Of a DNA stretch of 36,289 nucleotides, positions 5,475 to 33,127 are shown piece after piece (position 1 is the stretch's first letter; the number at the start of each line of letters is the position of its first letter). Below the pieces are notes generated by a model, which saw nothing but the letters and a program-made list of their open reading frames with translations, was not told where the DNA came from and did not search any database. Made by a program: the position numbers and the translations under genes. The DNA is from Candidatus Gemmiger stercoravium (lineage in GTDB: Bacteria; Bacillota; Clostridia; Oscillospirales; Ruminococcaceae), in assembly GCA_019119835.1 (NCBI GenBank), contig DWWE01000038.1, forward strand, positions 1-36,289. The letters are read 5' to 3'.

Positions 5475-5483
5475 ATTATACCA
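5475..5483 (-). promoter_or_regulatory. Extended -10 promoter of the EFR1-type gene
   Basis: On the minus strand TGGTATAAT is a TGn-extended perfect -10 box about 47 bases upstream of the start codon. No good -35 is seen at 16-18 bases, which is common for extended -10 promoters. Confidence 0.6.
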
Positions 5484-5578
5484 CGGCGTGCGGCGGAATG
5501 GTACCGCTGCAGCGCAGAAAGCGGCCGGGCCCGGCGGCGGAACGGTGCGCCGCCCGGCCGGACAAAGGAGATGCGACC

Positions 5579-6604
5579 ATGTCCAAGATGAAACCGGAAC
5601 TTTTTTCCAGCCCGGCGGTGCTGCGCTGCCGGGGCGGCGCGCCCGTCCTCAGCCGGGCGGACGTTCCCTATCCGGCTGACTGTGTTTTCAACGCCGGGGT
5701 CACCCGGTACCGGGGGCAGTATGTCTGCGCCTTCCGGGCGGACAGCGGGTATGACGGCCGGGGCGGTTTCGACCGCTGCGTGATCGGGCTGGCCTTCAGC
5801 CGGGACGGTGTCCGCTGGACCGTGCAGGACCGGCCCTTCCTGACGCCGGAGGATCTGGGCGACCCTGAGATCACCCGGGTCTACGACCCCCGCCTGACCG
5901 TGATCGACGGGGACCTGTACCTCTGCTTTGCGGCCGATACCCGCCACGGGCTGCGCGGGGGGATCGCGGTGGTCCGGGACCTGGCCCGCATCGAACTCAG
6001 GTGCCTTACGGTGCCGGACAACCGCAACCTCGTCCTCTTCCCCGAAAAGATCGGCGGGCGGTATGTGCGGCTGGAACGCCCCTTCCCGGTCTATTCCCGG
6101 GGCGGGGTGGACCGGTTCGACATCTGGATCTCCTACTCAAGAGATCTCGAATACTGGGGGGACAGCCGCCTGCTGCTGCGGGTGGAGGACGTACCCTTCG
6201 CCAACGACAAGATCGGCCCCGGCGCACCGCCCATCCGCACCGACAAGGGCTGGCTGACCCTCTTCCACACGGTGGACATCGACCGCAGCCGGGGCAAAAA
6301 CGGCTGGGAGGACAAATGGCAGAAGCGCTACTGTGCCGGCGTCATGCTGCTGGACCTGGAGGATCCGTCCCGGGTGGTCGGCCTGTGCAAAACCCCCTTA
6401 CTGGCCCCCGAGACCCGCTGGGAAACGCAGGAGGGATACCGCACCAACGTGATCTTCCCCGGCGGGCTGGTGCCGGAACCCGACGGCACGGTCAAGATCT
6501 ACTACGGCGCCAGTGACACCGTGGAGTGCCTGGCGACGGCGCAGATCGACGATCTGCTGGCCCTGTGCCGCCCGGCGGCGGAATTGCCCGGCGCCGGCCA
6601 TTGA
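5579..6604 (+). CDS. GH130 family glycoside phosphorylase (beta-mannoside type)
   Basis: A 341-residue five-bladed beta-propeller enzyme of glycoside hydrolase family 130. The family phosphorolyses beta-1,4- or beta-1,2-mannosides, releasing mannose 1-phosphate. Visible signatures are the N-terminal FNAGVTRYRGQYVCAFRAD, then VYDPRLTVIDGDLYLCFAAD, whose Asp (about residue 103) matches the catalytic acid. Next come ERPFPVYSRGG, DIWISYSRDLEYWG, KIGPGAPPIRTDKGWLTLFH and a terminal YYGASDT. No signal peptide is present, so the substrate is intracellular oligosaccharide. ATG 5579 follows AAAGGAG closely; the frame is open far upstream but antisense to the neighbour. It is first in a sugar cluster whose next gene has its own promoter overlapping this stop codon. 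The exact linkage specificity cannot be told. Confidence 0.9.
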   Translation: MSKMKPELFSSPAVLRCRGGAPVLSRADVPYPADCVFNAGVTRYRGQYVCAFRADSGYDGRGGFDRCVIGLAFSRDGVRWTVQDRPFLTPEDLGDPEITRVYDPRLTVIDGDLYLCFAADTRHGLRGGIAVVRDLARIELRCLTVPDNRNLVLFPEKIGGRYVRLERPFPVYSRGGVDRFDIWISYSRDLEYWGDSRLLLRVEDVPFANDKIGPGAPPIRTDKGWLTLFHTVDIDRSRGKNGWEDKWQKRYCAGVMLLDLEDPSRVVGLCKTPLLAPETRWETQEGYRTNVIFPGGLVPEPDGTVKIYYGASDTVECLATAQIDDLLALCRPAAELPGAGH

Positions 6605-6630
6605 CACCGGCGGAGGGGAAGGGGTATGAT
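6601..6630 (+). promoter_or_regulatory. SigA promoter of xylB
   Basis: TTGACA (6601-6606), 18-base spacer, TATGAT (6625-6630). The perfect -35 contains the TGA stop codon of the GH130 gene (6602-6604). It gives the kinase cluster an independent start. Confidence 0.8.
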
Positions 6631-6674
6631 AAGAAAAAACGCGCACGCCACAGCGGTGCGGAAAGGCGGTCAAT

Positions 6675-8156
6675 ATGGTATACATCGGTGTGGATCTTGG
6701 CACTTCGGCCTGCAAGTTTTTGCTGGTGGATGAGACCGGCCGGGTCTGCCGGCAGGTCACGCAGGAGTATCCGCTCCGCTTCCCCCATCCGGGGTGGAGC
6801 GAGCAGGACCCCGGCGACTGGTGGTCGGCCTGCCTGGCGGGCATTCCCCGCCTGCTGGAAGGGCTGGACCCGGCCACGGTGCAGGGCATCGGGGTGGGCG
6901 GCCAGATGCACGGCCTGGTGGCGCTGGACGCCGCCGACCGGGTGGTGCGCCCGGCGATCCTGTGGAATGACAGCCGCACCGCCGCCCAGACCGACTATCT
7001 CAACGAGACGATCGGCCGGGACCTGCTGAGCCGCTGCACCGGCAACATCGCCTTTGCGGGCTTCACCGCCCCCAAACTGCTCTGGATGCGGGAAAACGAG
7101 CCGGAGCTCTACGCCTCCATCCGCAGGATCATGCTGCCCAAGGACTATCTGGTCTACCGGCTCACCGGCGTACATGCCACCGATTACTCCGACGCGTCCG
7201 GCATGCTGCTGCTGGATGTGGAGCATAAATGCTGGAGCCGCCGGATGTGCGAGATCTGCGGCGTGCAGCCCGAATGGCTGGCCGCGCTGTATGAAAGCTG
7301 GCAGCCGGTGGGCACGCTGCTCCCCGAAGCCGCCCGGGCGCTGGGCCTGCCCGGGACCGTCACGGTCTGTGCCGGCGCCGGCGACAACGCGGCCGCGGCC
7401 ATCGGCACCGGCACGGTGGGGGAGGGACGGTGCAACATCAGTCTCGGCACCTCCGGCACGGTGTTCATCTCGTCGGACACCTTCCGGGTGGACCCCAACA
7501 ACGCGCTGCACGCCTTCGCCCATGCCGACGGCGGCTTCCACCTGATGGGCTGTATGCTCTCCGCCGCCTCCTGCAACAAGTGGTGGATGGAGGACATCCT
7601 GCAGGACAGCGACTATGCCGCCGCCCAGGCCGCCATCCGGCCCGAAAAGCTGGGCCGCAACCATGTGTACTACCTGCCCTACCTGATGGGCGAGCGCAGC
7701 CCCATCAACGACGTGAACGCCCGGGCCACCTTCCTGGGCATGACGATGGACACCACCCGGGCCGACATGACCCAGGCCATGCTGGAAGGGGTGGCCTTCG
7801 CGCTGCGGGACAGCATCGAGGTGGCCCGCAGCCTGGGGTTGGCCATTCCCCGGTCCACCCTGTGCGGCGGCGGCAGCAAGTCGCCGCTGTGGCGCACCAT
7901 CCTGGCCAACGTCCTCGGCATTCCGCTGGATCTGCCGGTGACCGAGCAGGGCCCCGGCTACGGCGCCGCGCTGCTGGCCATGGTGGCCTGCGGCCGGTAT
8001 GCCGATGTGGCCGAAGTCTCCCGCGCCATGCTCAAGATCCGGGAAACGGTGGAGCCCGACCCGGCCCTGACCGCCCTGTATGAAGCCCGGTATGCCGAGT
8101 TCCGGCAGATCTACCCGGCCTGCAAGGACCTGTTTGCCAGGCTGGGCCGCGCCTGA
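6675..8156 (+). CDS. xylB: Xylulokinase (FGGY carbohydrate kinase)
   Basis: A 493-residue FGGY kinase phosphorylating D-xylulose (or a similar ketopentose) with ATP. Length and motifs match xylulokinases: phosphate loop GVDLGTSACKFLLVD at residues 5-19, substrate loop GGQMHG at 75-80, the catalytic Asp in GAGDNAAAAIG (Asp237), the adenosine motif SLGTSGTVF and LCGGGSKSPLWRTILANV near residue 395. ATG 6675 is preceded by GAAAGGCGG. The next genes (DUF4867 and a small transaldolase) follow on the same strand 55 bases apart each. No xylose isomerase is in the window, so the source of the ketose is open. Specificity for xylulose rather than another ketose is by family resemblance. Confidence 0.92.
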   Translation: MVYIGVDLGTSACKFLLVDETGRVCRQVTQEYPLRFPHPGWSEQDPGDWWSACLAGIPRLLEGLDPATVQGIGVGGQMHGLVALDAADRVVRPAILWNDSRTAAQTDYLNETIGRDLLSRCTGNIAFAGFTAPKLLWMRENEPELYASIRRIMLPKDYLVYRLTGVHATDYSDASGMLLLDVEHKCWSRRMCEICGVQPEWLAALYESWQPVGTLLPEAARALGLPGTVTVCAGAGDNAAAAIGTGTVGEGRCNISLGTSGTVFISSDTFRVDPNNALHAFAHADGGFHLMGCMLSAASCNKWWMEDILQDSDYAAAQAAIRPEKLGRNHVYYLPYLMGERSPINDVNARATFLGMTMDTTRADMTQAMLEGVAFALRDSIEVARSLGLAIPRSTLCGGGSKSPLWRTILANVLGIPLDLPVTEQGPGYGAALLAMVACGRYADVAEVSRAMLKIRETVEPDPALTALYEARYAEFRQIYPACKDLFARLGRA

Positions 8157-8211
8157 GGGCGCCCCGGCCGGGAGATAGAAGCGAGACACCATGGGAAAGG
8201 AAGATGCAAGT

Positions 8212-8853
8212 ATGAAGATCGAATCCGTATTGGACCCCGCCTTTGCCGCCTACGGCCATGTGGTGGAAGGGCTGGAGGAGGCCCGGGCCGAGATCCTGAC
8301 CGCCCTGGCCGCCACCCCGCTGCCCGCCGCCGGCACCGATTACTGCCCCGAGGACCCCGCCCTGCAGGAATTGCCGGCGGCCGCCGAGGTCAGCGAGCAC
8401 TTGTTCGGCGGTATGCCCTGCCAGCTGGGCTGGTGCAACGGCCGCAACACCAGGCTCAACTGCCTGGAATACCACCGGGACAGCGAGTATAACCTCTCCA
8501 ACGAGGATTTCATCCTGCTGCTGGCCCGGCGGGACCAGATCGAGGGCGGCCGGCTGGACACCGGCAAGGTCCGGGCCTTCCGGGTGCCGGCGGGCACGCT
8601 GGTGGAGGTGTACGCCACCACGCTGCACTATGCCCCCTGCCACACCGACCCGGCCCGGGGCTTCCGGGTGCTGGTGGCGCTGCCCGCCGGCACCAACACC
8701 GGCAAGCCGGACATCACCCCCAAAGCCGATGAGGACGCCTGGCTGTGGGCCTGCAACAAGTGGCTGCTGGCCCACCCCGAATCCGCCGAGGCCGCCCAGG
8801 GCGCCGCCGCCGTGCTGACCGGGCCCAACCTGGACATTGCCGCCGACCTATGA
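8212..8853 (+). CDS. DUF4867 family cupin-like protein
   Basis: A 213-residue protein I recognise as DUF4867, a family without established function. The core looks like a cupin. LEYHRDSEYN contains His88-x3-Glu92, and a second-motif His139 lies in TTLHYAPCH after the hinge GTLVEVYATT, so a metal-binding barrel is likely. It sits between xylulokinase and a transaldolase/aldolase, the position an isomerase or epimerase would occupy; a sugar-isomerase role is therefore an inference. I prefer ATG 8212 (AAAGGAAG about 8 bases upstream, MKIESVLDPAF) over the in-frame ATG 8191, which lacks a good site. It is soluble, with no signal peptide. Confidence 0.8.
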   Translation: MKIESVLDPAFAAYGHVVEGLEEARAEILTALAATPLPAAGTDYCPEDPALQELPAAAEVSEHLFGGMPCQLGWCNGRNTRLNCLEYHRDSEYNLSNEDFILLLARRDQIEGGRLDTGKVRAFRVPAGTLVEVYATTLHYAPCHTDPARGFRVLVALPAGTNTGKPDITPKADEDAWLWACNKWLLAHPESAEAAQGAAAVLTGPNLDIAADL

Positions 8854-8907
8854 CATGAACGGCCGGCCCTGCCGGGGCCGGCACCTGCGGGAAAGGATGT
8901 GTGCGTT

Positions 8908-9567
8908 ATGAAACTGTTTCTTGATACCGCCAATGTGGAGGAGATCCGCAAAGCCAACGAGATGGGGGTGATCGCCGGCGTGACCACCAACCCCAGCCTG
9001 ATCGCCAAGGAGGGCCGCGACTACGCCGAGACGCTGGCCGAGATCGCCACCATCGTGGACGGGCCCATCTCCGGCGAGGTCAAGGCCACCACCACCGATG
9101 CCGACGGCATGGTGCGGGAAGGCGAGGCCATCTATGCGCTGGACCCCGCCCACATGGTCGTCAAGATCCCCATGACCGCCGAAGGGCTCAAGGCCATCCG
9201 GCGGCTGTCCGCCAAGGGCATCCCCACCAACTGCACGCTGATCTTCACGGCCAACCAGGCCCTGCTGGCTGCCCGGGCCGGCGCCGCCTATGTCAGCCCC
9301 TTCCTGGGCCGGCTGGATGACATTTCCCAGCGGGGCATCGAACTGGTGGAGACCATCCACGATATGTTCCTGAACTATCCGGAGATCCAGACCCAGATCA
9401 TCGCAGCCAGCGTGCGCAACCCCATCCATGTGACCGACTGCGCCCTGGCCGGGGCGGACATCGCCACGGTGCCCTACAAGGTCATTGAACAGATGCTCCA
9501 CCACCCGCTGACCGACGCCGGCATTGAAAAGTTCCGCGCCGACTATACAAAGGTGTTCGGCGAATGA
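8908..9567 (+). CDS. Fructose-6-phosphate aldolase / TalC-type transaldolase
   Basis: A 219-residue small class I aldolase of the transaldolase subfamily 3B (FSA/TalC/MipB), which uses a Schiff-base lysine. Typical features are [20 protein letters not shown] at the N-terminus, [13 protein letters not shown], the catalytic Lys in [20 protein letters not shown], the [15 protein letters not shown] loop and AASVRN. It would either transfer dihydroxyacetone units (pentose phosphate pathway) or cleave fructose 6-phosphate; sequence alone does not separate these reliably. In this cluster it could carry xylulose 5-phosphate into central metabolism. ATG 8908 is favoured over ATG 8899 because it begins at the family-typical MKLFLDT and has AAAGGA upstream. 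It ends before a strong terminator. Confidence 0.9.
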
Positions 9568-9662: not shown

Positions 9663-11003
9663 TCACAGCAGGCCGTCGGGCAGGGGGGCGCCGGGGCGCA
9701 GGTCCAGCGCCGCCACCTCGCCCACCAGGATCACGGCGGGCGGCTGCACCCCGGCCTTCCGGGCGGCTTCGGCAATGTCGGCCAGCGGGGCGCGCACCGC
9801 GGCGGGGCAGGGGGCGTTGCCGCCGCTGACCACCGCCGCCGGGGTGGAGGCGGGCAGTCCGCCGGCGATCAGGTCGGCGGCGATGCGGGGCAGGCGCTGC
9901 AGCCCCATCAGAAACACAAGGGTGCCCTCCAGCGCGGCATAGCGGCGGTAGTCCGGCGAAGCGTCGCCGGCGCTGTGGGCCGTGATGATGTGCAAGGCCC
10001 GGCTCACCCCCCGCTGGGTCACCGGGATGCCCGCCTGCCCCGGCACCGCCAGGGCCGAGGACACCCCCGGCACCACCTCATAGGCAAGGCCGGCCCGCTG
10101 CAGGGCCAGCGCCTCCTCGCCGCCCCGGCCGAACAGGTAGGGGTCGCCGCCTTTCAGCCGCACCACCAGCCCGCCCCGGCGCCCCAGCCGGACCAGCAGG
10201 TCGTTGATCTCGGCCTGGGGCATCGCCTGGCGGCCGCTGCGCTTGCCCACATACACCCGCCGGGCGTCGGCGGGGACCTGGTCCAGCAGGGCGGGGTCGA
10301 TCAGATCGTCATACACCACGGCCCGGCACTGCTGCAGCAGCCGCAGCCCCCGCACCGTGATCCACTCGGCGGTGCCGCAGCCGGCCCCCACCAGCGCCAC
10401 CGCCCCGGCCGCCGGCGGGGCGGGCAGGGGGGCAGCCGCCGCCATCTCGGCGGCAAAGTCCCGGCGGGCCTGCTCGGCCCGCTCCGGTTCCGACAGGGCG
10501 GCGGCCGTCTCCCCCCGGGCCGCCCGGCGGGCGGCCAGCCGGTCCAGCACCCGGGCAAAGCCGGGCGGCAGTTCGGCTTCCAGCCGGCGGCGCAGCCAGG
10601 CGGCGGCTGTGGGGCTGGCCCCGCCGGTGGAGATCCCCACCGTCAGCCGGCCCCGCTGCACCAGCGCCGGGAAATAGAACCCGCAGCCCGCCGGGTCGTC
10701 CACCACATTCACAAGGATGCGCCGGGCCTTGCACAGCGCGGCGATGCGCCGGTTCAGCGCCCGGTCGCCGGCCGCGGCGATCACAAAGTCCGGCGCCGGG
10801 ACCAGGTCGCTGTCCGCAAAGGGGCGGCGGCAGAGGGTCAGACCGGCCATCCCGGCCAGCTCGGCACAGATCTCGGGCGCCACAACGGTCAGCCGGGCGC
10901 CGAAGGGCAGCAGCTTTTCCGCCTTGCGGCAGGCCACCCGGCCGCCGCCGACCAGCAGCCCGCGGGCGCCTTCCAGCTGAATGAAAAAGGGAAACCAGGC
11001 CAT
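9663..11003 (-). CDS. cysG: Bifunctional siroheme synthase (SUMT plus precorrin-2 dehydrogenase/ferrochelatase)
   Basis: A 446-residue CysG-type fusion making siroheme from uroporphyrinogen III. Residues 1-200 are the Met8/CysG-N domain. They show the NAD site LLVGGGRVACRKAEKLLPFG, then NVVDDPAGCGFYFPALVQRG, then GISTGGASPTAAAWLRRRLE. From about residue 205 comes uroporphyrinogen-III methyltransferase, with ALVGAGCG, VVYDDLIDP, VRLKGGDPYLFGRGGEEA, PGVSSALAVPGQAGIPVTQRG and VFLMG. No HemD domain follows. The start overlaps the stop of the ABC ATPase by one base (TGATG), with AAAGGAGG upstream, indicating translational coupling. The obvious local user of siroheme is the sulfite/nitrite-reductase-like fusion encoded upstream on the same strand at 13896-16466. 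Confidence 0.93.
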   Translation of the reverse strand: MAWFPFFIQLEGARGLLVGGGRVACRKAEKLLPFGARLTVVAPEICAELAGMAGLTLCRRPFADSDLVPAPDFVIAAAGDRALNRRIAALCKARRILVNVVDDPAGCGFYFPALVQRGRLTVGISTGGASPTAAAWLRRRLEAELPPGFARVLDRLAARRAARGETAAALSEPERAEQARRDFAAEMAAAAPLPAPPAAGAVALVGAGCGTAEWITVRGLRLLQQCRAVVYDDLIDPALLDQVPADARRVYVGKRSGRQAMPQAEINDLLVRLGRRGGLVVRLKGGDPYLFGRGGEEALALQRAGLAYEVVPGVSSALAVPGQAGIPVTQRGVSRALHIITAHSAGDASPDYRRYAALEGTLVFLMGLQRLPRIAADLIAGGLPASTPAAVVSGGNAPCPAAVRAPLADIAEAARKAGVQPPAVILVGEVAALDLRPGAPLPDGLL

Positions 11004-11776
11004 CAGCCTTCCTCCTTTGGCAGTTTGCAGTAATATTGCCAGCCCTCGGGGGTGGCGGCCCGGCCCTGCCGGATGCCGAACACCCGCTCCAGCACGCCGC
11101 TCTCGTACACGGCTTCCGGCGCGCCGGCGCCCACCAGCCGCCCGGCGTCCAGCACGGCCAGCCGGTCGGCCCCGGCCAGCGCCAGCGGCAGGTCGTGCAG
11201 CACCAGGACCACCGCCTTGCCGCTGCGGGCCAGCCGGCGGGCCAGTTCCATCACGCCCAGCTGGTGGGCAATGTCCAAAAAGGTGGTGGGTTCGTCCATC
11301 AGAACGGTGGGGGTCTGCTGGGCAATGGCCATCGCCAGGTAGACCTTCTGCCGCTGCCCGCCGCTCAGTTCGGGCAGCGGCCGGTCGGCCAGGTCGGCGG
11401 CGTCCGCGGCGGCCAGCGCCTCTGCCACGATGCGGTGATCCTCGGCCCGGTAATGCCGCGGGCAGGACAGGTGGGGGAACCGGCCGTGCAGCACCATCCG
11501 CCGGGCTGTGATGTTGGGCACCGGCCGGCTCTGGGACAAAAAGGAGACCTGCCGGGCCACCTGCCGGGGCGACAGGCGGGAAAGGGGCGCCCCGTCCAGC
11601 AGCACCTCGCCGGCCAGGCAGGGCGCCAACCCCAGAACGGCGCGCAGCAGCGTGCTTTTTCCGCTTCCGTTGGGGCCGGCCAGCACCAGCACCTCGCCGG
11701 GGCGGAAGGCCAGGTCGATGTCCTGTACCACCGGGCGGCGGTGGTATCCGGCCGCAAGGCCGCGCAGTTCAATCAT
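11003..11776 (-). CDS. ABC transporter ATPase, FecE/FepC (iron chelate/cobalamin) type
   Basis: A 257-residue ATPase. It shows Walker A GPNGSGKS, signature LSGGQRQKV, Walker B TVLMDEPTTFLD and the switch His in VLHDLPLAL. The segment ITARRMVLHGRFPHL is typical of the iron-siderophore/heme/B12 import subfamily. It energises the permease encoded immediately upstream (8-base overlap) and is coupled to siroheme synthase downstream. Placement with siroheme synthase and an Fe-S/siroheme enzyme favours iron or heme as the cargo, but cobalamin cannot be excluded. Confidence 0.92.
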   Translation of the reverse strand: MIELRGLAAGYHRRPVVQDIDLAFRPGEVLVLAGPNGSGKSTLLRAVLGLAPCLAGEVLLDGAPLSRLSPRQVARQVSFLSQSRPVPNITARRMVLHGRFPHLSCPRHYRAEDHRIVAEALAAADAADLADRPLPELSGGQRQKVYLAMAIAQQTPTVLMDEPTTFLDIAHQLGVMELARRLARSGKAVVLVLHDLPLALAGADRLAVLDAGRLVGAGAPEAVYESGVLERVFGIRQGRAATPEGWQYYCKLPKEEG

Positions 11777-12791
11777 GGGTACGCCCTCCTCTTTGCCGGA
11801 TCAGCAGCCACAGGAAAAACGGCCCGCCCACCAGGCTCAGCACGGTGCCTACCGGCAGTTCGAAGGGGGCGGCCGCCAGCCGGGCCAGCAGATCGCAGAC
11901 GGTCAGCAGCGCCGCGCCGCCCAGGGCCGAGCAGAGCAGCAGCGGCCGGCTTTCCCCGCCCACCAGCCGGCGCACGATGTGGGGCACCAGCAGCCCCACA
12001 AAGCCCACCAGCCCGCAGAAGCTCACGGCGGCCCCGGCCAGCGCCGCCGCCAGCGCCAGAAACACCAGCCGGGCCGGCCGCACCCGCAGCCCCAGGCTGC
12101 GGGCGGTCTCGGGGCCCAGGGCCAGCAGGTCCAGGTCGCCGGCCAGCACCGCAGCCGCCGCCAGGCTCACCCCGATCAGCACCGCCGCCGGGGCGATGCG
12201 GGCCAGCGAGACCCCCGCCAGCCCGCCCATGCGGAAGTCGGTGTAGCCGGTCAGCGCGTCGGGAAAGACCGTGGTCACCGCGTCGATCAGCGCCGAAAAG
12301 ATGTTGGAGATCGCCACCCCGGCCAGCACCAGCGTGATGCGGGACGCCCCGGTGGCCTCGGAGAAAAAGAGCACCAACAGCACCCCGGCCATCGCCCCGG
12401 CAAAGGCGGCCAGCGGCTGCAGCAGGGCGGCGGGGGCCAGGGCGCTGCACAGCGCCACGCCCAGCCCGGCGCCGGCGTTCACCCCGATGATGTGGGGGGC
12501 GGCCAGCGGGTTGGCCAGCACGGTCTGGATGATCACGCCGGACACCGCCAGCGCCGCCCCGGCCAGCAGGCTGCCGCATACCCGGGGCAGCCGGGCGTAC
12601 AGCACCACCCGGGCGGCCACGCTGCCGGGGTCCTGCCCGGCCAGCGCCCGCAGCACCTCTCCGGGGCGCAGGTCGGCGGCGCCCAGCCCCAGGCTCAGCA
12701 GGGCCAGGGCGGCGGTCAGCGCCGCCAGCCCCCAGGCGGCCGCGGCCGGGTGCTCACGCAGCCGGGTACAGGATGTCGGCCAGTTTTTCAT
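11769..12791 (-). CDS. ABC transporter permease, FecCD family
   Basis: A 340-residue, very hydrophobic protein with about ten membrane segments. FecCD hallmarks are visible: LPRVCGSLLAGAALAVSGVI, QTVLANPLAAPHIIGVNAGAG, and the cytoplasmic coupling region GFVGLLVPHIVRRLVG followed by ELPVGTVLSLVGGPFFLWLL. I choose ATG 12791, which has GGGGGAAG just upstream. This start overlaps the end of the binding-protein gene by 38 bases. A longer in-frame start at 12812 has no ribosome binding site. It is a single permease gene, so it probably acts as a homodimer with two copies of the ATPase. Confidence 0.9.
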   Translation of the reverse strand: MKNWPTSCTRLREHPAAAAWGLAALTAALALLSLGLGAADLRPGEVLRALAGQDPGSVAARVVLYARLPRVCGSLLAGAALAVSGVIIQTVLANPLAAPHIIGVNAGAGLGVALCSALAPAALLQPLAAFAGAMAGVLLVLFFSEATGASRITLVLAGVAISNIFSALIDAVTTVFPDALTGYTDFRMGGLAGVSLARIAPAAVLIGVSLAAAAVLAGDLDLLALGPETARSLGLRVRPARLVFLALAAALAGAAVSFCGLVGFVGLLVPHIVRRLVGGESRPLLLCSALGGAALLTVCDLLARLAAAPFELPVGTVLSLVGGPFFLWLLIRQRGGRTHD

Positions 12792-13713
12792 AGGCTTCCC
12801 CCCATCTTGCATTGGGTTTCAGGTTGTACAGCGTCGGGTCCATCACATAGCAGCGCCCCTCCTGCACCGCCCGCAGGCTGGCCCAGGCCGGGCTGGACCG
12901 CAGCATCTCGTCGGCCACCGCCTCGGCCACGGCCGGGTCGGCGGTCTGGTAGACGAGAAAGATATAATCCGGGTCCTCCTGCAGGATGACTTCCAGGCTC
13001 AGGTTTTCCAGCAGCGAATCCTCCCGGTCCGCGATGTTGTCGCACCCCAGGTCGGCCAGCATCTCGCCCAGCACATTGTCCCGGCTGTTCTTGACCTTGC
13101 ACCCCGAACTGGACACCCGCACATACAGCACGCTGGGGGCGCTGCCGTCGGCCCGGGCGATGGCCCGGGCCACCCGGTCCCGCACAGCCTCGCCGTTTTG
13201 GCGGCAGGCGTCGGCGTCGCCGGTCAGGCGGCTGCAGCGTTCCAGCATGGACAGGTACTGCTCGAAGGTGCTCACCTCAAAATACGCCGCCGGGATCCCC
13301 ATTTCCTCAAAGGTGTCCATCAGTTCCAGATCCAGCGCGGTGTTCACGCTGGCCAGGATCAGGTCCGGCTCGGCGGCGATCAGCGTTTCCAGGCTGATCT
13401 GCTTGGTGGCGCCCAGGTCGGTGACCCCCTCCAGCGGCAGCCAGTCAAAGTAGGTCCAGGCGTCGGTGGCGCTGGCGACCAGGCTGTCCTCGCCGCCGGC
13501 CAGGCACCACACATCGGCAAAACTGCCGATGAGCGCCGCCACCCGCCGGGGCGGGGCCTCCACATTCACGGTGCGGCCCAGGTCGTCCACAAGGGAGATG
13601 ACCTGGGCGGACCCGGCGGGCCGGGCGGCCTCGGCGGTGGAGGCGGTGCCGGGCCGGGCGGTGCAGCCCGCCAGCAGCAGCCCGGCCAGCAAAGCGGCAA
13701 ACAGTTGCTTCAT
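12754..13713 (-). CDS. Substrate-binding lipoprotein of the iron/B12-type ABC transporter
   Basis: A 319-residue PF01497-type binding protein. The N-terminus MKQLFAALLAGLLLAGC is a lipoprotein signal with lipobox Cys17, so it is anchored outside the membrane. The mature protein starts with a short linker and then ISLVDDLGRTVNVEAPPRRV, the usual opening of siderophore/heme/B12 binding proteins. It continues with a helical backbone and a C-terminal lobe (EGRCYVMDPTLYNLKPNARWGEAYEKL). ATG 13713 has GAAAGGAAACC upstream; the frame is open to 13776 but without a site. It is the first gene of the importer and lies about 180 bases after the fusion oxidoreductase. The ligand is unknown. Confidence 0.9.
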   Translation of the reverse strand: MKQLFAALLAGLLLAGCTARPGTASTAEAARPAGSAQVISLVDDLGRTVNVEAPPRRVAALIGSFADVWCLAGGEDSLVASATDAWTYFDWLPLEGVTDLGATKQISLETLIAAEPDLILASVNTALDLELMDTFEEMGIPAAYFEVSTFEQYLSMLERCSRLTGDADACRQNGEAVRDRVARAIARADGSAPSVLYVRVSSSGCKVKNSRDNVLGEMLADLGCDNIADREDSLLENLSLEVILQEDPDYIFLVYQTADPAVAEAVADEMLRSSPAWASLRAVQEGRCYVMDPTLYNLKPNARWGEAYEKLADILYPAA

Positions 13714-13895
13714 GGGTTCGGTTTCCTTTCTAATAGGTAGGGCAGGGGACGCAAAAGCCGGGCCGCAGCCGGGCAAACAGGGCGCACCTGCCCCCGCGTT
13801 GTCGGCAGGGGAAAAGCAGGATCATTTTAAGGCCCTTTGTCCGCTGTGCGGTCCGGCAGATCGCTTTGCTTTGGGTCAATCATTCGGCAAGGTCT

Positions 13896-16466
13896 TCAGC
13901 AGGTGGCGCCGCCCACGACCTTTTTCTGCAGCGCGGCGTCCTTGTCCAGCTTGCCGTTCAGCAGCTTGTCCTGAACATAGTCGAAGCCCAGCCGCTGGAT
14001 GGTATCGGCGAACCGCTCGCCGGTGACGCCCTCGTCCCGGTAGAACAGGATCGCCCGCTCCACCAGGTCCAGCACCTCTTCCTCCGAGGTGAAGATCTTA
14101 TCCAGCGGGCGGCCGTTGGCGACCTTTTTGCCCCAGCGCCCGCCGATGTACACCCGGTACCCGTCCACAAACTCCTCGGTCACGCCGAAGGGGCAGCGGC
14201 CTTTGCAGCGGCCGCAGTGGTTGCAGGCGTCGGGGTCCACCTTCAGCCGGCCGTCCTCCAGCCTGGCCACATGGATCGGGCAGTTGGCCTCCACCTGGCA
14301 TTTGGCGCAGCCGCGGCATTTTGTCAGGTCGAACACCGGCACCCGCTGGCCCACGATGCCCAAGTCGTTCAGATTGGGTTTGACGCAGTTGTTGGGGCAG
14401 CCGCCCACCGCGATCTTGAACTTGTGGGGCAGGGTGACGTTGTGGTAGCCCAGGTAGAACCGCTGGTGGAGCTTCTCGCTCAGCCCGAAGGAATCCAGCA
14501 GCCCGTACTGGCAGGTCGTGCCTTTGCAGGACACCACCGGCCGCACCAGCGACCCGGTGCCGCCGGTCTGCAGGCCGGCCTGCCGCAAAAAGTCCATCAG
14601 GTCCTCCAGCTTGTCATAGGGCACGCACTGGATCTCCAGCGTCAGGCGGGTGGTCATGGTCACCTCGCCCGAGCCGAACCGGTCGGCAGCCTCGGCCACC
14701 GCCCGCTGCTCGTCGGTGGTCAGCTTGCCGTTGCGGGTGATGACCCGGACGTTGAACCGGTCGGGGTAGCGCTTGTCCTGCAGGCAGCCCAGGGCCTTGA
14801 CCCGCTTGATCTCCTCGGGGGTCAGGGCAGAGGTCGCCGGCACCCGGACCTGGTTGAAGGTGGCGCCGCCCTCCAGCACCCGGGTGTTGGTGTAGCCCAG
14901 CGCCTTGAGCCGGTTCTGCAGGAAGTAGCCCCGCTTGCCCCGGGCGCAGACCAGCAGCAGCCTGGCGTCCCGGGCGTAGCCGTCCAGCGGGCCGTTGACC
15001 TTGCTCAGATCGACCCAGGCGGCGCCGCGCAGCGTCGGGGCGGGGTGAACGTCCAGCACCTCATAGCCGGCGGCCGCGCCGGCGGCGTACTCGGCGGGGG
15101 TGAAGGTCTCGAACCGGCCGGCCAGCTTGTTTTCCAGGATGTAGCAGGCCTGGACGAAGGGGTGGATGGCGGTGGAGAAGGGGGGCGCATAGGCAAAGTC
15201 CAGCGTGTCGAAATCCTCCAGCCGGGCCCCCAGCGAGAGGCCGGTCACCGCAATGTCCACCATCTTGTCCACGGCGCCGGCGCCCAGCACCTGGATGCCC
15301 AGCAGCCTGTGGCTGGCGCGGTCGGCGATCAGCTTGGTCAGGAAGCTGGCCGCGCCGGGGTAGTAGTGGGCCTTGTCGTCGGTCACACAGACCACGCTCA
15401 CCGGGTCGTAGCCGGCGTCTTTGGCCTGGGGCTCGGTCAGGCCGGTGCGCCCGGCGTTCAGATCCTCCAGCAGCCGCACAACGCCGGTGCCCAGGCACCC
15501 GCCGTACGCAGCCGGCTGCCCCGAAAGCCCCCGGGCCAGGCAGCGGCCGGTGATGTTGGCGGTGGAGCCCATGGCTGACCACTGGGGCGCCCGGGTCAGG
15601 GCGTTGAAGACCAGCGCACAGTCGCCCACCGCGTAGACATCCTCCAGGTTGGTCTGCTGGCGGGCGTCCACCCGGATGGCCCCTTTGACCATCGCAAGGC
15701 CCGAATCCTTCAAAAAGCCGGTGGCCGGCCGGATGCCGATGGCCAGCACCACCAGGTCGGCGGGCAGGCTGCCCGCGTCGGTGGCGACGGCGGCGGCCCG
15801 GCCCTCGCCCTGCACGCCCCGGAAGGCGGTGCCGGTCAGCACCCGCATGCCCCTGGCCTGCAGCCGCCGCTTCACATAGCCGGCCATCTCGGGGTCAAAG
15901 ATGTTGGGCATCAGCTGGGGGGCCATGTCCACCACCGTGACCTCCAGCCCCCTGGCCAGCAGGTTTTCGGCCACCTCCAGCCCGATGAAGCCGCCGCCCA
16001 CCACCACGGCGCGGCGGCATTGGTTTTGCTCCGCCCAGTCCCGGGCGGCGATGGCGTCGTCCGGCGTGCGCATCGTGAAGACGCCGGGCAGGCCGGTGCC
16101 CGGCACATCGGGCACAAAGGGCTCGGCGCCCACCGCCAGGATCAGCCGGTCGTAGGCTTCCTCCCGGGCGATGCCGGTCCCGGTATCCCGCACCGTCACC
16201 GTGTGGGCAGCGGCGTTCAGGGCCACGGCCTCCTGCCCGGTGAACACCTGCACCCGGGTCAGGCCGGCGTACTTGGCCGGCGTGTTGACGATCAGGTCCT
16301 CCCGGTCAGGGATCTCCCCGCCGAGATAATAGGGCAGGCCGCACCCTGCATAGGAGATGTCCCGGCCTTTTGAAAAGAGCACGACCTCGGCGTCCGGCTG
16401 CTCCCGCTTGAGCTTGGCCGCGGCCTTGGTCCCGGCGGCCACGCCGCCAATGACTACGATCCTCAT
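13896..16466 (-). CDS. CoA-disulfide-reductase / rhodanese / siroheme sulfite-reductase-like / ferredoxin fusion
   Basis: An 856-residue multidomain redox enzyme. Residues 1-450 are a class III pyridine-nucleotide disulfide oxidoreductase. They show the FAD motif GGVAAGTKAAAKL, the single redox Cys42 in SYAGCGLPYY as in CoA-disulfide and persulfide reductases, the NAD(P) motif VVVGGGFIGLEVAENL and FAD segment VYAVGDC. About 465-540 is a rhodanese domain with the loop VCARGKRGY (Cys507). About 550-700 is a nitrite/sulfite reductase half with cluster/siroheme ligands in CKGTTC (Cys647, Cys652) and GGCPNNC (Cys690, Cys694). About 715-760 is an inserted 2[4Fe-4S] ferredoxin (CX2CX2CX5CP and CX2CX2CX3CP). 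It is predicted to be cytoplasmic and to use NAD(P)H to reduce persulfide, polysulfide, sulfite or nitrite. ATG 16466 is preferred over ATG 16472 because the latter abuts AGGAGG. The likely substrate is unproven. Confidence 0.88.
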   Translation of the reverse strand: MRIVVIGGVAAGTKAAAKLKREQPDAEVVLFSKGRDISYAGCGLPYYLGGEIPDREDLIVNTPAKYAGLTRVQVFTGQEAVALNAAAHTVTVRDTGTGIAREEAYDRLILAVGAEPFVPDVPGTGLPGVFTMRTPDDAIAARDWAEQNQCRRAVVVGGGFIGLEVAENLLARGLEVTVVDMAPQLMPNIFDPEMAGYVKRRLQARGMRVLTGTAFRGVQGEGRAAAVATDAGSLPADLVVLAIGIRPATGFLKDSGLAMVKGAIRVDARQQTNLEDVYAVGDCALVFNALTRAPQWSAMGSTANITGRCLARGLSGQPAAYGGCLGTGVVRLLEDLNAGRTGLTEPQAKDAGYDPVSVVCVTDDKAHYYPGAASFLTKLIADRASHRLLGIQVLGAGAVDKMVDIAVTGLSLGARLEDFDTLDFAYAPPFSTAIHPFVQACYILENKLAGRFETFTPAEYAAGAAAGYEVLDVHPAPTLRGAAWVDLSKVNGPLDGYARDARLLLVCARGKRGYFLQNRLKALGYTNTRVLEGGATFNQVRVPATSALTPEEIKRVKALGCLQDKRYPDRFNVRVITRNGKLTTDEQRAVAEAADRFGSGEVTMTTRLTLEIQCVPYDKLEDLMDFLRQAGLQTGGTGSLVRPVVSCKGTTCQYGLLDSFGLSEKLHQRFYLGYHNVTLPHKFKIAVGGCPNNCVKPNLNDLGIVGQRVPVFDLTKCRGCAKCQVEANCPIHVARLEDGRLKVDPDACNHCGRCKGRCPFGVTEEFVDGYRVYIGGRWGKKVANGRPLDKIFTSEEEVLDLVERAILFYRDEGVTGERFADTIQRLGFDYVQDKLLNGKLDKDAALQKKVVGGATC

Positions 16467-16561
16467 ACTCATCCTCCTGCCTTGCGTTCCGAATCCGCGG
16501 GTCCCCTCACCCCGGCGCCCGCCGGGGCCGGCGGGGGCAAGGGCCTTCTTTCTTGCTTTCC

Positions 16562-16589
16562 ATTATAAACCCTTTTGGGCAAAAGGCAA
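16562..16589 (-). promoter_or_regulatory. SigA promoter of the fusion oxidoreductase
   Basis: On the minus strand TTGCCT (16584-16589), 16-base spacer, TATAAT (16562-16567). It gives a leader of roughly 90 bases. It lies in the 344-base region shared with the divergent hydrogenase promoter. Confidence 0.7.
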
Positions 16590-16664
16590 ACAAATTCCGC
16601 CCCCTTGCCCGAAAACGCCCCCGCCGCCGGGGTCGGAATCAAGGCGAAACCGTCAAAAATATAA

Positions 16665-16676
16665 GTTGCCGTGGCA
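16665..16676. promoter_or_regulatory. Inverted repeat TTGCC-N2-GGCAA between divergent promoters
   Basis: TTGCCGTGGCAA is a small dyad about 30 bases upstream of the hydrogenase -35 and about 75 bases upstream of the other promoter. The position fits an operator serving either gene, but the dyad is short and no regulator is encoded nearby. No Rex-type TTGTTAA-N4-TTAACAA site was found in this region. Confidence 0.3.
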
Positions 16677-16706
16677 AAACAAATGTAAAAAATATCCAAA
16701 ATCCTG

Positions 16707-16735
16707 TTGAACTCCCGCCCGGATTCCCGTATACT
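16707..16735 (+). promoter_or_regulatory. SigA promoter of the hydrogenase operon
   Basis: TTGAAC (16707-16712), 17-base spacer, TATACT (16730-16735). The start codon of the first gene is 75 bases downstream. Confidence 0.75.
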
Positions 16736-16810
16736 GGTATCAATACGGCGGCTTGGGCTGGGCCGCCAGACCCCCGGGCCGACATGGCCCGGCCAAACGG
16801 AGGAACAACT

Positions 16811-18646
16811 ATGCGTAGACTTTCCATTGAGACCCCGGACCGCGCCCAACAGGTCGTGCAGGACCTGTGCCGCGATATGGGGCATCGTGTGGCGGCCAAC
16901 CCGCCGGGGCTGTGCCCGGTGGACCTGGCGCTGAACTTCCTGCGCCTGTGCCATGCGCAGACCTGCGGCAAATGCGTGCCCTGCCGCATCGGGCTGTCCC
17001 AGCTGGAGACCCTCATCGAGAGCGTGCTGGACCAGACCGCCCCGCCGGGCACCATCAACCTGATCGAGTCCACCGCCGCCGCCATCGTCGATTCGGCCGA
17101 CTGTGCCATCGGCTACGAGGCCGCCGCCATGGTGCTGGAAGGGGTGTGCGGCTTCCGGGAGGATTACGAGCTCCACGCGGCCGAGGGCCGCTGCATCTGC
17201 TCGCTGGCCCAGCCGGTGCCCTGCGTCACCGTCTGCCCGGCCCATGTGGACATCCCCGGCTACATCGCCCTGGTGCGGGAAGGCCGCTTTGACGACGCGG
17301 TCAACCTGATCCGCAAGGACAATCCCTTCCCGTACTCCTGCGCCTATGTCTGCGAACACCCCTGCGAAAAGCAGTGCCGCCGCCGGCTGGTGGACGACGC
17401 CATCAACATCTGCGGCATCAAGCGGTATGCGGTGGACCATTGCAAGGACGAGACCCCGCCCGCCCCGGCCGAAGCCACCGGCAGGCGGGTGGCGGTGGTG
17501 GGCGGCGGGCCCAGCGGGCTGACCGCGGCCTACTACCTGCAGCTGATGGGCCACAGCGTCACGGTGTTTGAACAGCGGGAACGGCTGGGCGGTATGCTGC
17601 GTTACGGCATCCCCGACTACCGCCTGCCCCCCGAAGTGCTCCAGAAGGACATCGACTACATCCTGCGCACCGGCGTCGAGATCAAGACCGGCGTCTGCGT
17701 CGGCACCGACATCTCGGTGGAGCAGCTGCGGCAGGACTATGACGCGCTGTATGTGGCCATCGGCGCCCATGCCGACAAAAAGCTCGGCCTGCCCGGCGAG
17801 GACAGCGGCAACGTGCTGTCCGCCGTCGAGTTCCTGCGGGACTGCGGCGAGGGGGCGCCGCTGGACTTCACCGGCAAACGGGTGGTGGTCATCGGCGGCG
17901 GCAACGTGAGCATGGACGCCACCCGCACGGCCATCCGGCTGGGCGCGGCCAGCGTGACCTGCGTCTACCGCCGCCGGCTGGACGACATGACCGCCCTGCC
18001 GGAAGAGATCGCCGACGCCCAGGCCGAAGGCTGCCAGATCCTGCCGCTGCAGGCGCCCCACCGCATCGAGGCGGACGAAAACGGCAACGTGGCGGCGCTG
18101 TGGACCAAGCCCCAGATCATCGGCGGCTACGGGCGGGACGGCCGCCCGGCCCCCCGCGACGCGGCCGAGCGGGAGTTCCGCATCCCCTGCGACTACCTCA
18201 TCATCGCCATCGGCCAGCGCATCGAGTCGGACAACTTTGAAAAGGGCGGCATCCTGACCAGCCATGGCGCCCTGAAAGCCGACCTGTCCGGCTATGTGCC
18301 CGGCACCCCCAACGTCTTTGCCGGCGGCGACGCCGTCACCGGCCCGGCCACCGTCATCCGTGCGGTGGCGGCAGGCAAGGTGGGCGCCGCCAACATCGAC
18401 AGTTTCCTGGGCTTCCGCCACACCATCCGCTGCGATGTGCAGATCCCGCCGGCCCGGCTTTCCAACACACCGCCCTGCGGGCGCATCCAGCTCAAGAGCC
18501 GCAACCCGCTGGAAGCCCGCGCCGACTTTGCCCTGGCCACCTGCGGCATGACCGAGGAGGAAGCCCTGCAGGAAGCCGGCCGCTGCCTGCGGTGCGACCA
18601 CTTCGGCTACGGCATCTTTAAGGGAGGGAGGACGACCCAATGGTAA
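16811..18646 (+). CDS. Hydrogenase-associated flavoprotein: NuoF-type Fe-S segment fused to NfnB/GltD-like oxidoreductase
   Basis: A 611-residue FAD protein. Residues 1-115 match only the C-terminal [4Fe-4S] part of NuoF/HydB (TCGKCVPCRIG with Cys52, 55, 58 and distal Cys98); the FMN/NADH-binding part of NuoF is absent. Residues 125-215 are the Cys-rich GltD/NfnB N-domain (PCVTVCP and CAYVCEHPCEKQC). From 225 onward is an FAD/NAD(P) reductase with VAVVGGGPSGLTAA, the pyridine-nucleotide motif VVVIGGGNVSMDATR plus VYRRR, and FAGGDAVTGPATVIRAVAAG. It probably passes electrons between NAD(P)H and the hydrogenase encoded next, whose gene overlaps its end by 7 bases. GltD-like homology suggests NADPH, but this is inference. 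ATG 16811 has GGAGGAAC upstream; the longer open frame to 16553 crosses the promoter. Confidence 0.92.
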   Translation: MRRLSIETPDRAQQVVQDLCRDMGHRVAANPPGLCPVDLALNFLRLCHAQTCGKCVPCRIGLSQLETLIESVLDQTAPPGTINLIESTAAAIVDSADCAIGYEAAAMVLEGVCGFREDYELHAAEGRCICSLAQPVPCVTVCPAHVDIPGYIALVREGRFDDAVNLIRKDNPFPYSCAYVCEHPCEKQCRRRLVDDAINICGIKRYAVDHCKDETPPAPAEATGRRVAVVGGGPSGLTAAYYLQLMGHSVTVFEQRERLGGMLRYGIPDYRLPPEVLQKDIDYILRTGVEIKTGVCVGTDISVEQLRQDYDALYVAIGAHADKKLGLPGEDSGNVLSAVEFLRDCGEGAPLDFTGKRVVVIGGGNVSMDATRTAIRLGAASVTCVYRRRLDDMTALPEEIADAQAEGCQILPLQAPHRIEADENGNVAALWTKPQIIGGYGRDGRPAPRDAAEREFRIPCDYLIIAIGQRIESDNFEKGGILTSHGALKADLSGYVPGTPNVFAGGDAVTGPATVIRAVAAGKVGAANIDSFLGFRHTIRCDVQIPPARLSNTPPCGRIQLKSRNPLEARADFALATCGMTEEEALQEAGRCLRCDHFGYGIFKGGRTTQW

Positions 18647-20400
18647 ACCTGACCATCAACAACAAGGCGGTCACCGTGCCCGAGGGCACCACCATCCTGG
18701 AGGCTGCCCGCCAGGCCGGCATCGACATTCCGCATCTGTGCTACCTGAAAAAACTCAACGAGATCGGCGCCTGCCGCGTCTGCTGCGTGGAGGTGGAAGG
18801 GGAGCGCAATCTGGTCCCCAGCTGCAACAACCCGGTGGTGGAGGGCATGGTCATCCACACCAACAGCCCCCGCGCCCGCCGCACCCGCAAGATCAATGTG
18901 GAACTCATCCTCAGCCAGCACGACTGCCACTGCGCCACCTGCCAGCGCAGCGGCAACTGCCACCTGCAGACCATGGCCAACGACCTGGGCATTCTGGACA
19001 ACCCCTACCCGCGGGACCTGGTCACCGGGGTGCGGGCGCTCTGGCCGCGGGACTTCCCGCTTTACCGGGATACCAACAAATGCATCAAATGTATGCGCTG
19101 CATCCAGGTCTGTGACAAGATCCAGGGGGTCAATGTGTGGGATCTGTCCGGCACCGGCAGCCGCACCCGGGTGGATGTGAGCCGCAATCGCCGCATCAAG
19201 GAATCCGACTGCGTGCTCTGCGGCCAGTGCATCACCCACTGCCCCACCGGCGCCCTGCGGGAGCGCAGCGACACCGAGAAGGCGTTCGCCGCCATCGAGG
19301 ACCCCGACCGCATCACGGTGGTGCAGATCGCCCCGGCGGTGCGCACCGCCTGGGGAGAGAGCCTCGGCCTGCCGCCGGAGAAGGCCACCGTCAACCGGAT
19401 GGCCGCGGCGCTGCGGGCGCTGGGCTTCGACTATGTCTTCGACACCTCCTTCTCCGCCGACCTGACCATCATGGAGGAAGGCACCGAGTTCATCCGCCGC
19501 TTCCAGGCGGGGGAGACCAAAGACAAGCCGATGTTCACCAGCTGCTGCCCGGGCTGGGTGCGCTACCTCAAAGGCCATCACCATGACCTGGTGGGCTGCC
19601 TGTCCACCGCCAAGAGCCCCCAGCAGATGTTCGGCGCCGTGGCCAAAAACTACTTCGCCCAGAAGATCGGCGTCTCGCCGGACAAGATCTGCAGCATCTC
19701 CATCATGCCCTGCGTGGCCAAAAAGGCCGAGTGCGCCCTGCCGACCATGCACACCGAGGCCGGCCGGGATGTGGACCTGGCGCTGACCACCCGGGAACTG
19801 GTGCGGATGCTGCGGGCCGAGCACATCCACCCCGAAACGCTGGAGGAGGAAGCCTTCGACTCGCTGCTGGGTCCCTACAGCGGCGCGGGGGTCATCTTCG
19901 GCGCCACCGGCGGCGTGATGGAAGCCGCGCTGCGCAGCGCCTACTACCTGGTCAACGGCGAAAACCCGCCGCCCGACGCGTTCCGGGCGGTGCGCGGCGC
20001 CGCCGACGGGTCGGAAGGCTGGACCGAAGCCGAGTTCGACCTGGGCGGGGCCACGGTGCGCACGGCGGTGGTCAGCGGCCTGGCCAACACCGCCCGCCTG
20101 CTGGAAGCACTGCGCGCCGGCCAGGTCCGGTACGATTTTGTGGAGGTCATGGCCTGCCCCGGCGGCTGCGCCGGCGGCGGCGGACAGCCCCAGAGCAAGG
20201 ACGATGAGGAACTGGCCGCCGCTCGCGGACAGGTGCTCTACGCCATCGACAAGGGCAGCTCGCTGCGCTTCAGCCACGAAAACCCCGCCATCACCGCCCT
20301 GTACCGGGACGCTCTGGGCGAGCCGGGCAGCGAGGCGGCCGAACATTGGCTGCACACCGATCATTTCGGCTGGCAGATGCCCGGCGAACCGGCGGACTGA
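18640..20400 (+). CDS. hydA: [FeFe] hydrogenase catalytic subunit (group A)
   Basis: A 586-residue cytoplasmic hydrogenase interconverting protons and H2. The N-terminal [2Fe-2S] domain has Cys34, 45, 48 and 62. The His-Cys [4Fe-4S] domain follows (His94, Cys98, 101, 107). A 2[4Fe-4S] ferredoxin domain spans Cys148-201. The H-cluster ligands lie in TSCCPGW (Cys303, with the proton-relay Cys302), MPCVAKKAEC (Cys358) and the C-terminal CPGGCAGGGGQP (Cys506, Cys510). All catalytic residues of the CpI-type enzyme are present. It overlaps the flavoprotein gene (ATGGTAA), so translation is coupled. No NuoE-like subunit or HydEFG maturases are in the window. It could evolve H2 from NAD(P)H plus ferredoxin or consume it; direction cannot be told. 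Confidence 0.97.
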   Translation: MVNLTINNKAVTVPEGTTILEAARQAGIDIPHLCYLKKLNEIGACRVCCVEVEGERNLVPSCNNPVVEGMVIHTNSPRARRTRKINVELILSQHDCHCATCQRSGNCHLQTMANDLGILDNPYPRDLVTGVRALWPRDFPLYRDTNKCIKCMRCIQVCDKIQGVNVWDLSGTGSRTRVDVSRNRRIKESDCVLCGQCITHCPTGALRERSDTEKAFAAIEDPDRITVVQIAPAVRTAWGESLGLPPEKATVNRMAAALRALGFDYVFDTSFSADLTIMEEGTEFIRRFQAGETKDKPMFTSCCPGWVRYLKGHHHDLVGCLSTAKSPQQMFGAVAKNYFAQKIGVSPDKICSISIMPCVAKKAECALPTMHTEAGRDVDLALTTRELVRMLRAEHIHPETLEEEAFDSLLGPYSGAGVIFGATGGVMEAALRSAYYLVNGENPPPDAFRAVRGAADGSEGWTEAEFDLGGATVRTAVVSGLANTARLLEALRAGQVRYDFVEVMACPGGCAGGGGQPQSKDDEELAAARGQVLYAIDKGSSLRFSHENPAITALYRDALGEPGSEAAEHWLHTDHFGWQMPGEPAD

Positions 20401-33112: not shown

Positions 33113-33127
33113 TTTATGTCCAAAAAC

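Follow-up and report, generated by a model that had tools for sequence, protein, structure and literature searches.

A conserved flavoprotein-rhodanese-siroheme reductase fusion with a terminal cysteine tail in Candidatus Gemmiger stercoravium and other Clostridia

Known sulfite reductases and the fused enzyme

In the DsrAB-DsrC-DsrMK system of sulfate reducers, the cysteines of DsrC sit on a C-terminal arm. DsrAB is described as handing partly reduced siroheme sulfur to DsrC, and DsrMK as reducing the trisulfide of DsrC (PMC10229431, PMC10504309), and Fsr is described as making sulfide with no carrier (PMC10229431); AsrC is placed among the Group III Dsr-like proteins (PMC3448663). For EfCoAPR, the coenzyme A (CoA)-persulfide reductase (CoAPR) of Enterococcus faecalis, the authors favour bound CoA ferrying sulfur from the rhodanese Cys508 to Cys42 beside the flavin, with release of H2S (PMC9405070). 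Here we analysed a 36,289-nucleotide stretch of Candidatus Gemmiger stercoravium (contig DWWE01000038.1 of assembly GCA_019119835.1; the whole stretch is called the window below), in which one gene joins a flavoprotein and a rhodanese of the latter type to a siroheme reductase that ends in a cysteine. The product is a conserved enzyme of a known class with clear parent families, and no description of the fusion or of its tail was found in the literature searched, the searching having been partly aimed elsewhere with most subscription papers and all preprints outside its coverage.

The gene has an intact frame, recognisable modules and conserved active-site residues, it stands in a siroheme operon, and across its relatives the tail, Ser639 and a persulfide-reductase partner co-vary. 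Judged from these sequences, we put forward a sulfite reductase that is linked to NAD(P)H and has its own arm for carrying sulfur, a reading that we hold to be nearly an even call. The features of the gene are as follows.

13896..16466, minus strand: fusion gene, 856 amino acids (aa); CoA-disulfide reductase (CoADR)/CoAPR-like flavoprotein, rhodanese, siroheme sulfite reductase with 2[4Fe-4S] insert, C-terminal Cys tail
15147..16466, minus strand: part resembling CoA-disulfide/persulfide reductases that use flavin adenine dinucleotide (FAD) and NAD(P)H, residues 1-440; Cys42 at 16341-16343
14847..15104, minus strand: rhodanese domain, residues ~455-540 with approximate limits; Cys507 at 14946-14948, in the loop CARGKRGYFLQNRL
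13962..14765, minus strand: siroheme sulfite-reductase half, residues 568-835; predicted sulfite ligands R574, R642, K682 and K684; R607; cluster Cys 647, 652, 690 and 694
14181..14336, minus strand: inserted 2[4Fe-4S] ferredoxin domain, residues 711-762, with eight invariant Cys
14550..14552, minus strand: Ser639, three residues before the sulfite ligand R642, co-varying with the C-terminal tail
13899..13925, minus strand: C-terminal tail, residues 848-856, ending in GGATC; Cys856 is the last residue
16562..16589, minus strand: candidate sigma-70-like promoter TTGCCT-16-TATAAT upstream of the fusion, a consensus match only

The minus strand of 13896-16466 is a single open frame of 856 residues, with its ATG at 16466 and its stop at 13896, while the plus-strand translation of the same interval is interrupted by stops; a preliminary description of this DNA had recognised one polypeptide of this length here, giving no strand. 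AGGAGG lies six bases 5' of the ATG at 16466, and a second in-frame ATG occurs two codons earlier. The modules that the preliminary description had named were all recovered by the Pfam search it had proposed as a check: the CoA-disulfide/persulfide reductase-like flavoprotein by Pyr_redox_2 (residues 1-290, E 1.7e-60) and Pyr_redox_dim (335-434), the rhodanese with its intact Cys507 by a match over residues 482-534 that is barely over the cut-off (22.5 against 22.2 bits), the nitrite/sulfite-reductase-like half with its four cluster cysteines by NIR_SIR_ferr (568-629, 2.6e-13) and NIR_SIR (638-835, 3.5e-28), and the 2[4Fe-4S] ferredoxin insert by Fer4-type matches within 711-762. Cys507, the four cluster cysteines and the eight ferredoxin cysteines are conserved in 62/62 fused proteins (62 of the 81 loci, window included), and both the catalytic Cys42 and the terminal Cys856 are invariant in the same set. 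The predicted model of the fusion has a mean predicted local distance difference test score (pLDDT) of 85.8 and a predicted TM-score of 0.69.

Scanning genome contigs gave 439 confirmed relatives; the 80 best were kept, and these match residues 1-853 or 1-856, with best segments 67-81% identical to the window protein. Because there are this many relatives and all 80 kept ones match along the full length, chance joining or mis-assembly is ruled out; L025, one of the 80, is frame-broken. These 80 include contigs from Gemmiger, Flavonifractor, Pseudoflavonifractor, Ructibacterium and Parablautia, besides many from uncultured bacteria of the Clostridia type, and the fused form is present in Gemmiger-, Flavonifractor-, Oscillospiraceae- and Lachnospiraceae-type genomes. 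In the source genome (93% complete) the only other match to the fusion is short and weak.

The closest solved relative of the N-terminal half is the E. faecalis CoA-persulfide reductase 8a56 (320 bits over residues 2-534), which the predicted fold matches with a target TM-score of 0.93 over 542 columns. As in the other solved CoADR proteins with a rhodanese domain (CoADR-RHD; B. anthracis 3icr, Shewanella Npsr 3nta), both cysteines are kept and residues 1-540 match in sequence and fold. Unlike these proteins, the N-terminal half of the fusion belongs to a distinct subfamily dedicated to the sulfite reductase, with motifs of its own: mostly ISYAGCGLPYY and, in the rhodanese loop, mostly CxxGKRxYxLQNRL, as against CxxGLRSY in the five generic CoADR-RHD proteins compared. 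Neither Cys42 nor Cys507 varies in 57 aligned fused proteins, and their equivalents are kept in every adjacent partner that covers the site; Cys856 is nearly invariant in this 57-row alignment, which at least one row, L008, entered with its end at residue 853. The CoA-disulfide reductase equivalog TIGR03385 gives 363 bits, under its cut-off of 578.8. Flavoproteins that merely pass electrons to Fe-S centres usually have no redox Cys. On these residues, the persulfide-reductase half is probably active, and it would contain FAD. Generic CoADR-type matches were also seen in frames of ~820-845 aa (e.g. G263:C37, G385:C1, G423:C15), which are longer than CoADR-RHD and may hold extra domains.

By sequence, the nearest solved proteins to the reductase are Fsr enzymes (127 bits), and a fold search with the C-terminal half found Fsr closest, then DsrAB. 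In MjFsr, the M. jannaschii enzyme, the named sulfite ligands are Arg355, Arg423, Lys460 and Lys462, and Arg388 is given as a trait of the assimilatory type (PMC10229431); counted on the printed alignment, these residues align with R574, R642, K682, K684 and R607. Across 190 distinct proteins (at least 200 bits, not cut by a contig end, identical last 300 residues counted once) and the window, which was added in residue counts to make 191 rows, all five active-site Arg/Lys are unvarying, gaps aside; the sulfite-binding ones are kept in 94/94 fused proteins (window included), 21/21 proteins with an adjacent flavoprotein gene and 74-76 of the 76 others, the remainder being gaps. Fsr and the window protein share, besides these residues, an N-terminally fused redox module and a ferredoxin domain with two four-Cys sets inserted at the same position (residues 711-762 here). 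They differ in that the window protein has a CoADR-rhodanese module instead of the F420H2 oxidase and N-terminal ferredoxin, a C-terminal Cys tail, and the cluster motif C-x4-C-Xn-C-x3-C in place of the canonical CX5C-Xn-CX3C of Fsr. The shorter spacing is not peculiar to the fusion, since C-x4-C is found in 190/191 rows of at least 200 bits, the remaining row being a gap, and in five of the nine readable rows under 200 bits, where the other four have C-x5-C (23 rows in all are unreadable).

The half is very probably a sulfite-class siroheme reductase as far as its residues tell; siroheme as bound cofactor and sulfite as substrate appear likely, the support being genetic and consisting of the siroheme-synthase gene in the same operon. 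Sulfide as the likely product and the two parent families, which had been suggested in the preliminary description, are supported by the domain searches, by the conserved active site and by this operon. NIR_SIR domains also occur in nitrite reductases, and one paper treats the nitrite reductase activity of M. jannaschii Fsr, so that a reductase of nitrite or another oxyanion, its sulfur chemistry incidental, has to be weighed; the repeated pairing with persulfide-reductase/rhodanese modules, the sulfite reductases as nearest solved structures and a YeiH-like gene neighbouring 4/81 loci (the family is tied to sulfite resistance in PMC12880088) all speak against it, and we consider it highly improbable.

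None of the already-named families CoADR, nirB, dsrA, dsrB and asrC is reached over its cut-off among the best 25 of 138 NCBIfam families. The AsrC model TIGR02912 gives 87.9 bits (cut-off 324.1); AsrC of AsrABC is in the same siroheme class as the reductase half, but the electron module differs. The NirB model TIGR02374 gives 229.8 bits (cut-off 578.35) with its best stretch in the flavoprotein part. NirB resembles the fusion in having Pyr_redox_2 and NIR_SIR on one chain, whereas the window protein has no [2Fe-2S] BFD domain among the best 25 of 31 Pfam families and carries a rhodanese and a ferredoxin insert instead. Counts of sulfide in the gut usually go by dsrAB, asrABC, cysJI and cysteine breakdown. 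Since the reductase scores under the cut-offs of curated dsr/asr models, surveys built on them could miss it.

The reductase half has a match in 94/391 genomes of the class (E 1e-10 or better), and in 46/398 phylum-sample and 80/295 order-sample genomes (E 1e-40). We read 236 loci, 80 being the best relatives and 156 coming from genome searches, some of them the same place twice. The reductase occurs in three forms: fused, as a gene of ~317 aa directly after a separate CoADR-RHD gene of ~543 aa, and without one. Many homologues, up to 71% identical to this reductase half, have no such flavoprotein nearby, a class that depends on the flank, which at some loci is short or runs into the end of the contig. 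A donor other than this flavoprotein, probably ferredoxin, can therefore feed the reductase half. At two loci (L117:7930-9336, minus strand; L125:3268-4617, plus strand) the reductase half is fused to another N-terminal Cys-rich stretch of ~140 residues, a third architecture; this stretch presumably resembles the C_GCAxxG_C_C family.

The fusion as the cell's only siroheme reductase is ruled out, as the genome also encodes a 521-aa NIR_SIR protein. This second siroheme reductase (L272:6733-8295, plus strand, contig C4) lies among glycosyltransferase genes and has one NIR_SIR match over the cut-off and a second repeat under it. The PAPS-reductase family had no match in the source genome at its 93% completeness.

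The terminal cysteine, its partner gene and Ser639

Among the 190 distinct proteins, a C-terminal Cys is found in 92/93 fused proteins (93 of 94 with the window), in 20/21 with an adjacent partner, in 5/8 where a CoADR-type gene stands at slightly greater distance and in 3/68 without one nearby. The frame-broken fusion L025 is counted among the 21 adjacent, where the exception, L142, has a frame that breaks near the contig end. Of the three proteins that end in Cys with no partner nearby, L145 has a bare Cys without a Gly-rich tail, while the tails of L147 and L246 are degenerate. The fused exception without a Cys tail (L212:3481-6042, plus strand) is real as far as its sequence goes, and offers a natural test case for the arm model. 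The Cys stands at the very end of the arm, as in a DsrC-type arm: 119 distinct proteins chosen by a terminal A-x-C have Gly at -5 in 115 and at -4 in 118, and the tails of L219 and L220 read AGAKC.

Whole-genome searches extended this comparison beyond the flanks. In 46 genomes without an adjacent dedicated partner, a dedicated CoADR-RHD was found only in the genome of L212; in the 39 tail-less genomes, not all of them complete, the search at E 1e-60 gave no match of more than 40% identity to the dedicated flavoprotein. A generic CoADR-type match at E 1e-60 was present in 6/6 tailed genomes lacking the dedicated partner, two of which bear the degenerate tails, and in 17/39 tail-less ones, several genomes being incomplete.

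The association was then set against ancestry on a FastTree tree of 139 rows (window included, thinned by identity) that excluded the tail. Changes in tail and partner go together, with correlated-evolution likelihood ratios of 52.3, 48.3, 53.1 and 49.6 under four codings (L142, with its broken frame, was left out of two of them and of the column comparisons). On 116 rows, with 31/53 tailed fused rows kept and L142 out, well-supported branches alone hold four independent tail changes, in which the partner goes the same way in 2.5, shows no difference in 1.5 and never goes the opposite way (means over 200 pairings), while Ser639 goes the same way as the tail in 3.7. Clade tests on the same rows rejected a single clade for the tailed Ser639 rows (approximately unbiased test, p-AU 6.8e-6) and for the tailed fused rows (p 0.0074), both groups having been picked after the first tree was seen. 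The rejection implies more than one gain or loss, or transfer, gain not being told from loss.

Comparing columns between 77 tailed and 61 tail-less rows singled out two positions: residue 639 is Ser in 75/77 tailed rows and elsewhere usually Ala or Pro, and residue 815 is Thr or Ser in 74/77 tailed rows. In the likelihood test, which covered 56 of the 175 columns that vary (12 among the strongest, 44 random), Ser639 (ratio 68.6) and Thr/Ser815 (53.6) rank first and second; the next column reaches 29.5 and the median is 9.2. Counted on the alignment, residue 639 corresponds to Pro420 of MjFsr, three residues before the sulfite ligand Arg423. The fused, tail-less L212 has Pro639 and Ala815; tailed L125 and L218-L220, with only a generic CoADR nearby, have Ser639, and L125 has Pro815. 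Because Ser639 lies beside a sulfite ligand and co-varies with the tail, the tail may be placed at the siroheme pocket, where it would dock.

Proposed sulfur transfer and electron transfer in the fused enzyme

The tail points to sulfur transfer between the two halves rather than, or besides, direct electron transfer, and its role as a sulfur carrier has, on sequence grounds, somewhat less than an even chance. In the mechanism that we propose, the C-terminal half would bind siroheme coupled to a [4Fe-4S] cluster and hold sulfite by R574, R642, K682 and K684, while ferredoxin and/or the flavin would supply electrons by way of the inserted 2[4Fe-4S] domain. The flexible GGATC tail would reach into the siroheme pocket, and Cys856 would accept partly reduced sulfur there, as DsrC does from DsrAB. 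The tail would then swing to the rhodanese and pass the persulfide from Cys856 to Cys507, from where it would move to Cys42 by CoA or directly, NAD(P)H acting through FAD to release H2S; this order of transfers is the one that we infer. The proposed logic is that of DsrAB-DsrC-DsrMK, with partly reduced sulfur going from siroheme to a carrier Cys and a separate reductase clearing it. It differs in that the arm is the end of the reductase chain, the clearing enzyme is an NAD(P)H persulfide-reductase-type flavoprotein, and no membrane link is evident. In its fullest form, which we offer tentatively, the fusion would be a one-polypeptide analogue of DsrABC-MK, whose Cys arm enters its own siroheme pocket, takes sulfur in an intermediate state and delivers it to the fused NAD(P)H persulfide reductase, and the tail, Ser639 and the dedicated CoADR-RHD would co-evolve as a single module, which Clostridia would have gained or lost as a unit several times.

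The same modules would also make a plain six-electron NAD(P)H:sulfite reductase, comparable to Fsr with FAD/NAD(P)H in place of F420H2, in which electrons run from NAD(P)H through FAD and the ferredoxin insert to siroheme, sulfide leaves, and the tail is a docking or stabilising element. R607 is an Arg of the assimilatory type, a listed trait of six-electron reductases (PMC10229431), the ferredoxin domain is inserted at the Fsr position, and the flavoprotein is fused or adjacent to the reductase. The close tail-less homologues without this flavoprotein weaken its case as an obligatory electron donor, however, and the scheme leaves the invariant Cys42 and Cys507 without a job and the invariant terminal Cys and its link to Ser639 unexplained; we regard it as unlikely. 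An electron flow of this kind had been drawn in the preliminary description: its modules are present and such a path may operate, but the standalone homologues and the invariant redox Cys42 weigh against it. The C-terminal Cys tail, the C-x4-C spacing of the cluster motif and the invariance of Cys42 had been missed there.

Several points weigh against the carrier arm. A carrier is chemically unnecessary, because Fsr with the same active site makes sulfide without one. Among the 139 tree rows, six are tailed without a dedicated partner and two show the reverse, and L147 and L246, with their degenerate tails, have neither Ser639 nor a dedicated partner. The predicted confidence of the tail is modest (last block 68 and 60). 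As only four tail changes are well supported, the likelihood-ratio p-values rest on weakly supported branches, and four pairs cannot reach significance; gene transfer or recombination could also look like repeated gain and loss. Should the arm work in the proposed way, sulfur-carrier chemistry would be evolving inside a reductase, and the fusion would give a single-chain system in which DsrC-like transfer is open to point mutation.

Genes around the fusion

Downstream of the fusion, and on the same strand, lie four genes that overlap as longest frames.

12754..13776, minus strand: FecB-like periplasmic binding protein (Peripla_BP_2), first gene downstream of the fusion
11769..12812, minus strand: FecCD-type permease
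11003..11776, minus strand: FecE-like ABC ATPase
9663..11003, minus strand: CysG-like siroheme synthase with precorrin-2 dehydrogenase and uroporphyrinogen-III methyltransferase parts

The CysG model reaches 383.9 bits against a cut-off of 400, and both parts pass their own domain models. At loci with enough flank, FecB is directly downstream in 21/69 and a divergent LysR regulator immediately upstream in 32/74; neighbour clusters among the 81 loci include siroheme synthase (14), YeiH-like (4) and CbiK-like chelatase (3). One or two members of each neighbour cluster were put through NCBIfam, where the YeiH-like and CbiK-like ones score under cut-off.

These neighbours bear on a further possibility, a one-chain thiosulfate (or sulfur-chain) reductase in which Cys507 takes the sulfane sulfur and frees sulfite for reduction by the siroheme half, while the flavoprotein half reduces the persulfide, yielding two H2S. 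Every module needed is on one chain, and in Halanaerobium separate rhodaneses and an anaerobic sulfite reductase are described as turning thiosulfate to sulfide (PMC5497025). Yet the rhodanese is part of a protein of the persulfide-reductase type, no obvious sulfur-oxyanion transporter shows among the window frames searched with Pfam, and what recurs next to the relatives is a LysR regulator, FecBCD-type transport and siroheme synthesis. We consider this possibility improbable.

YeiE is described as binding sulfite and controlling YeiH, which gives sulfite resistance in Salmonella, where removing sulfite reductases left growth under aerobic sulfite stress unchanged (PMC12880088). The best model for the LysR representative is the selenium-metabolism LysR and YeiE is also matched, both under cut-off; against the solved YeiE domain 7erp it gives E 2.6e-11, the last of six LysR-type hits. 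The LysR and YeiH neighbours may thus hint at a sulfite response, as suggestive gene context and not as proof. At one locus (L046:1695-2762, plus strand) a YeiH-family putative exporter, scoring 120.9 bits against a cut-off of 232.6, lies directly upstream of the fused reductase.

In the window no LysR gene adjoins the fusion; its divergent neighbours encode a GltD-like flavoprotein and an [FeFe] hydrogenase of the NADH-dependent type. They form a plus-strand run at 16553-20400, NADH_4Fe-4S and the GltD-like flavoprotein followed by the hydrogenase, and the upstream region of this run adjoins that of the fusion; the best match of the hydrogenase is group A6, NADH-dependent (749.8 bits, just under the 765 cut-off). 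A plus-strand sugar-use run at 4736-9567 (GH130 phosphorylase-like, FGGY kinase, DUF4867 and transaldolase-like aldolase) converges on the siroheme operon. Further along, a thiamine pyrophosphate (TPP) riboswitch on the minus strand at 33002-33119 (67.3 bits, cut-off 54.3) lies upstream of a Thia_YuaJ-family thiamine transporter gene at 32362-32931.

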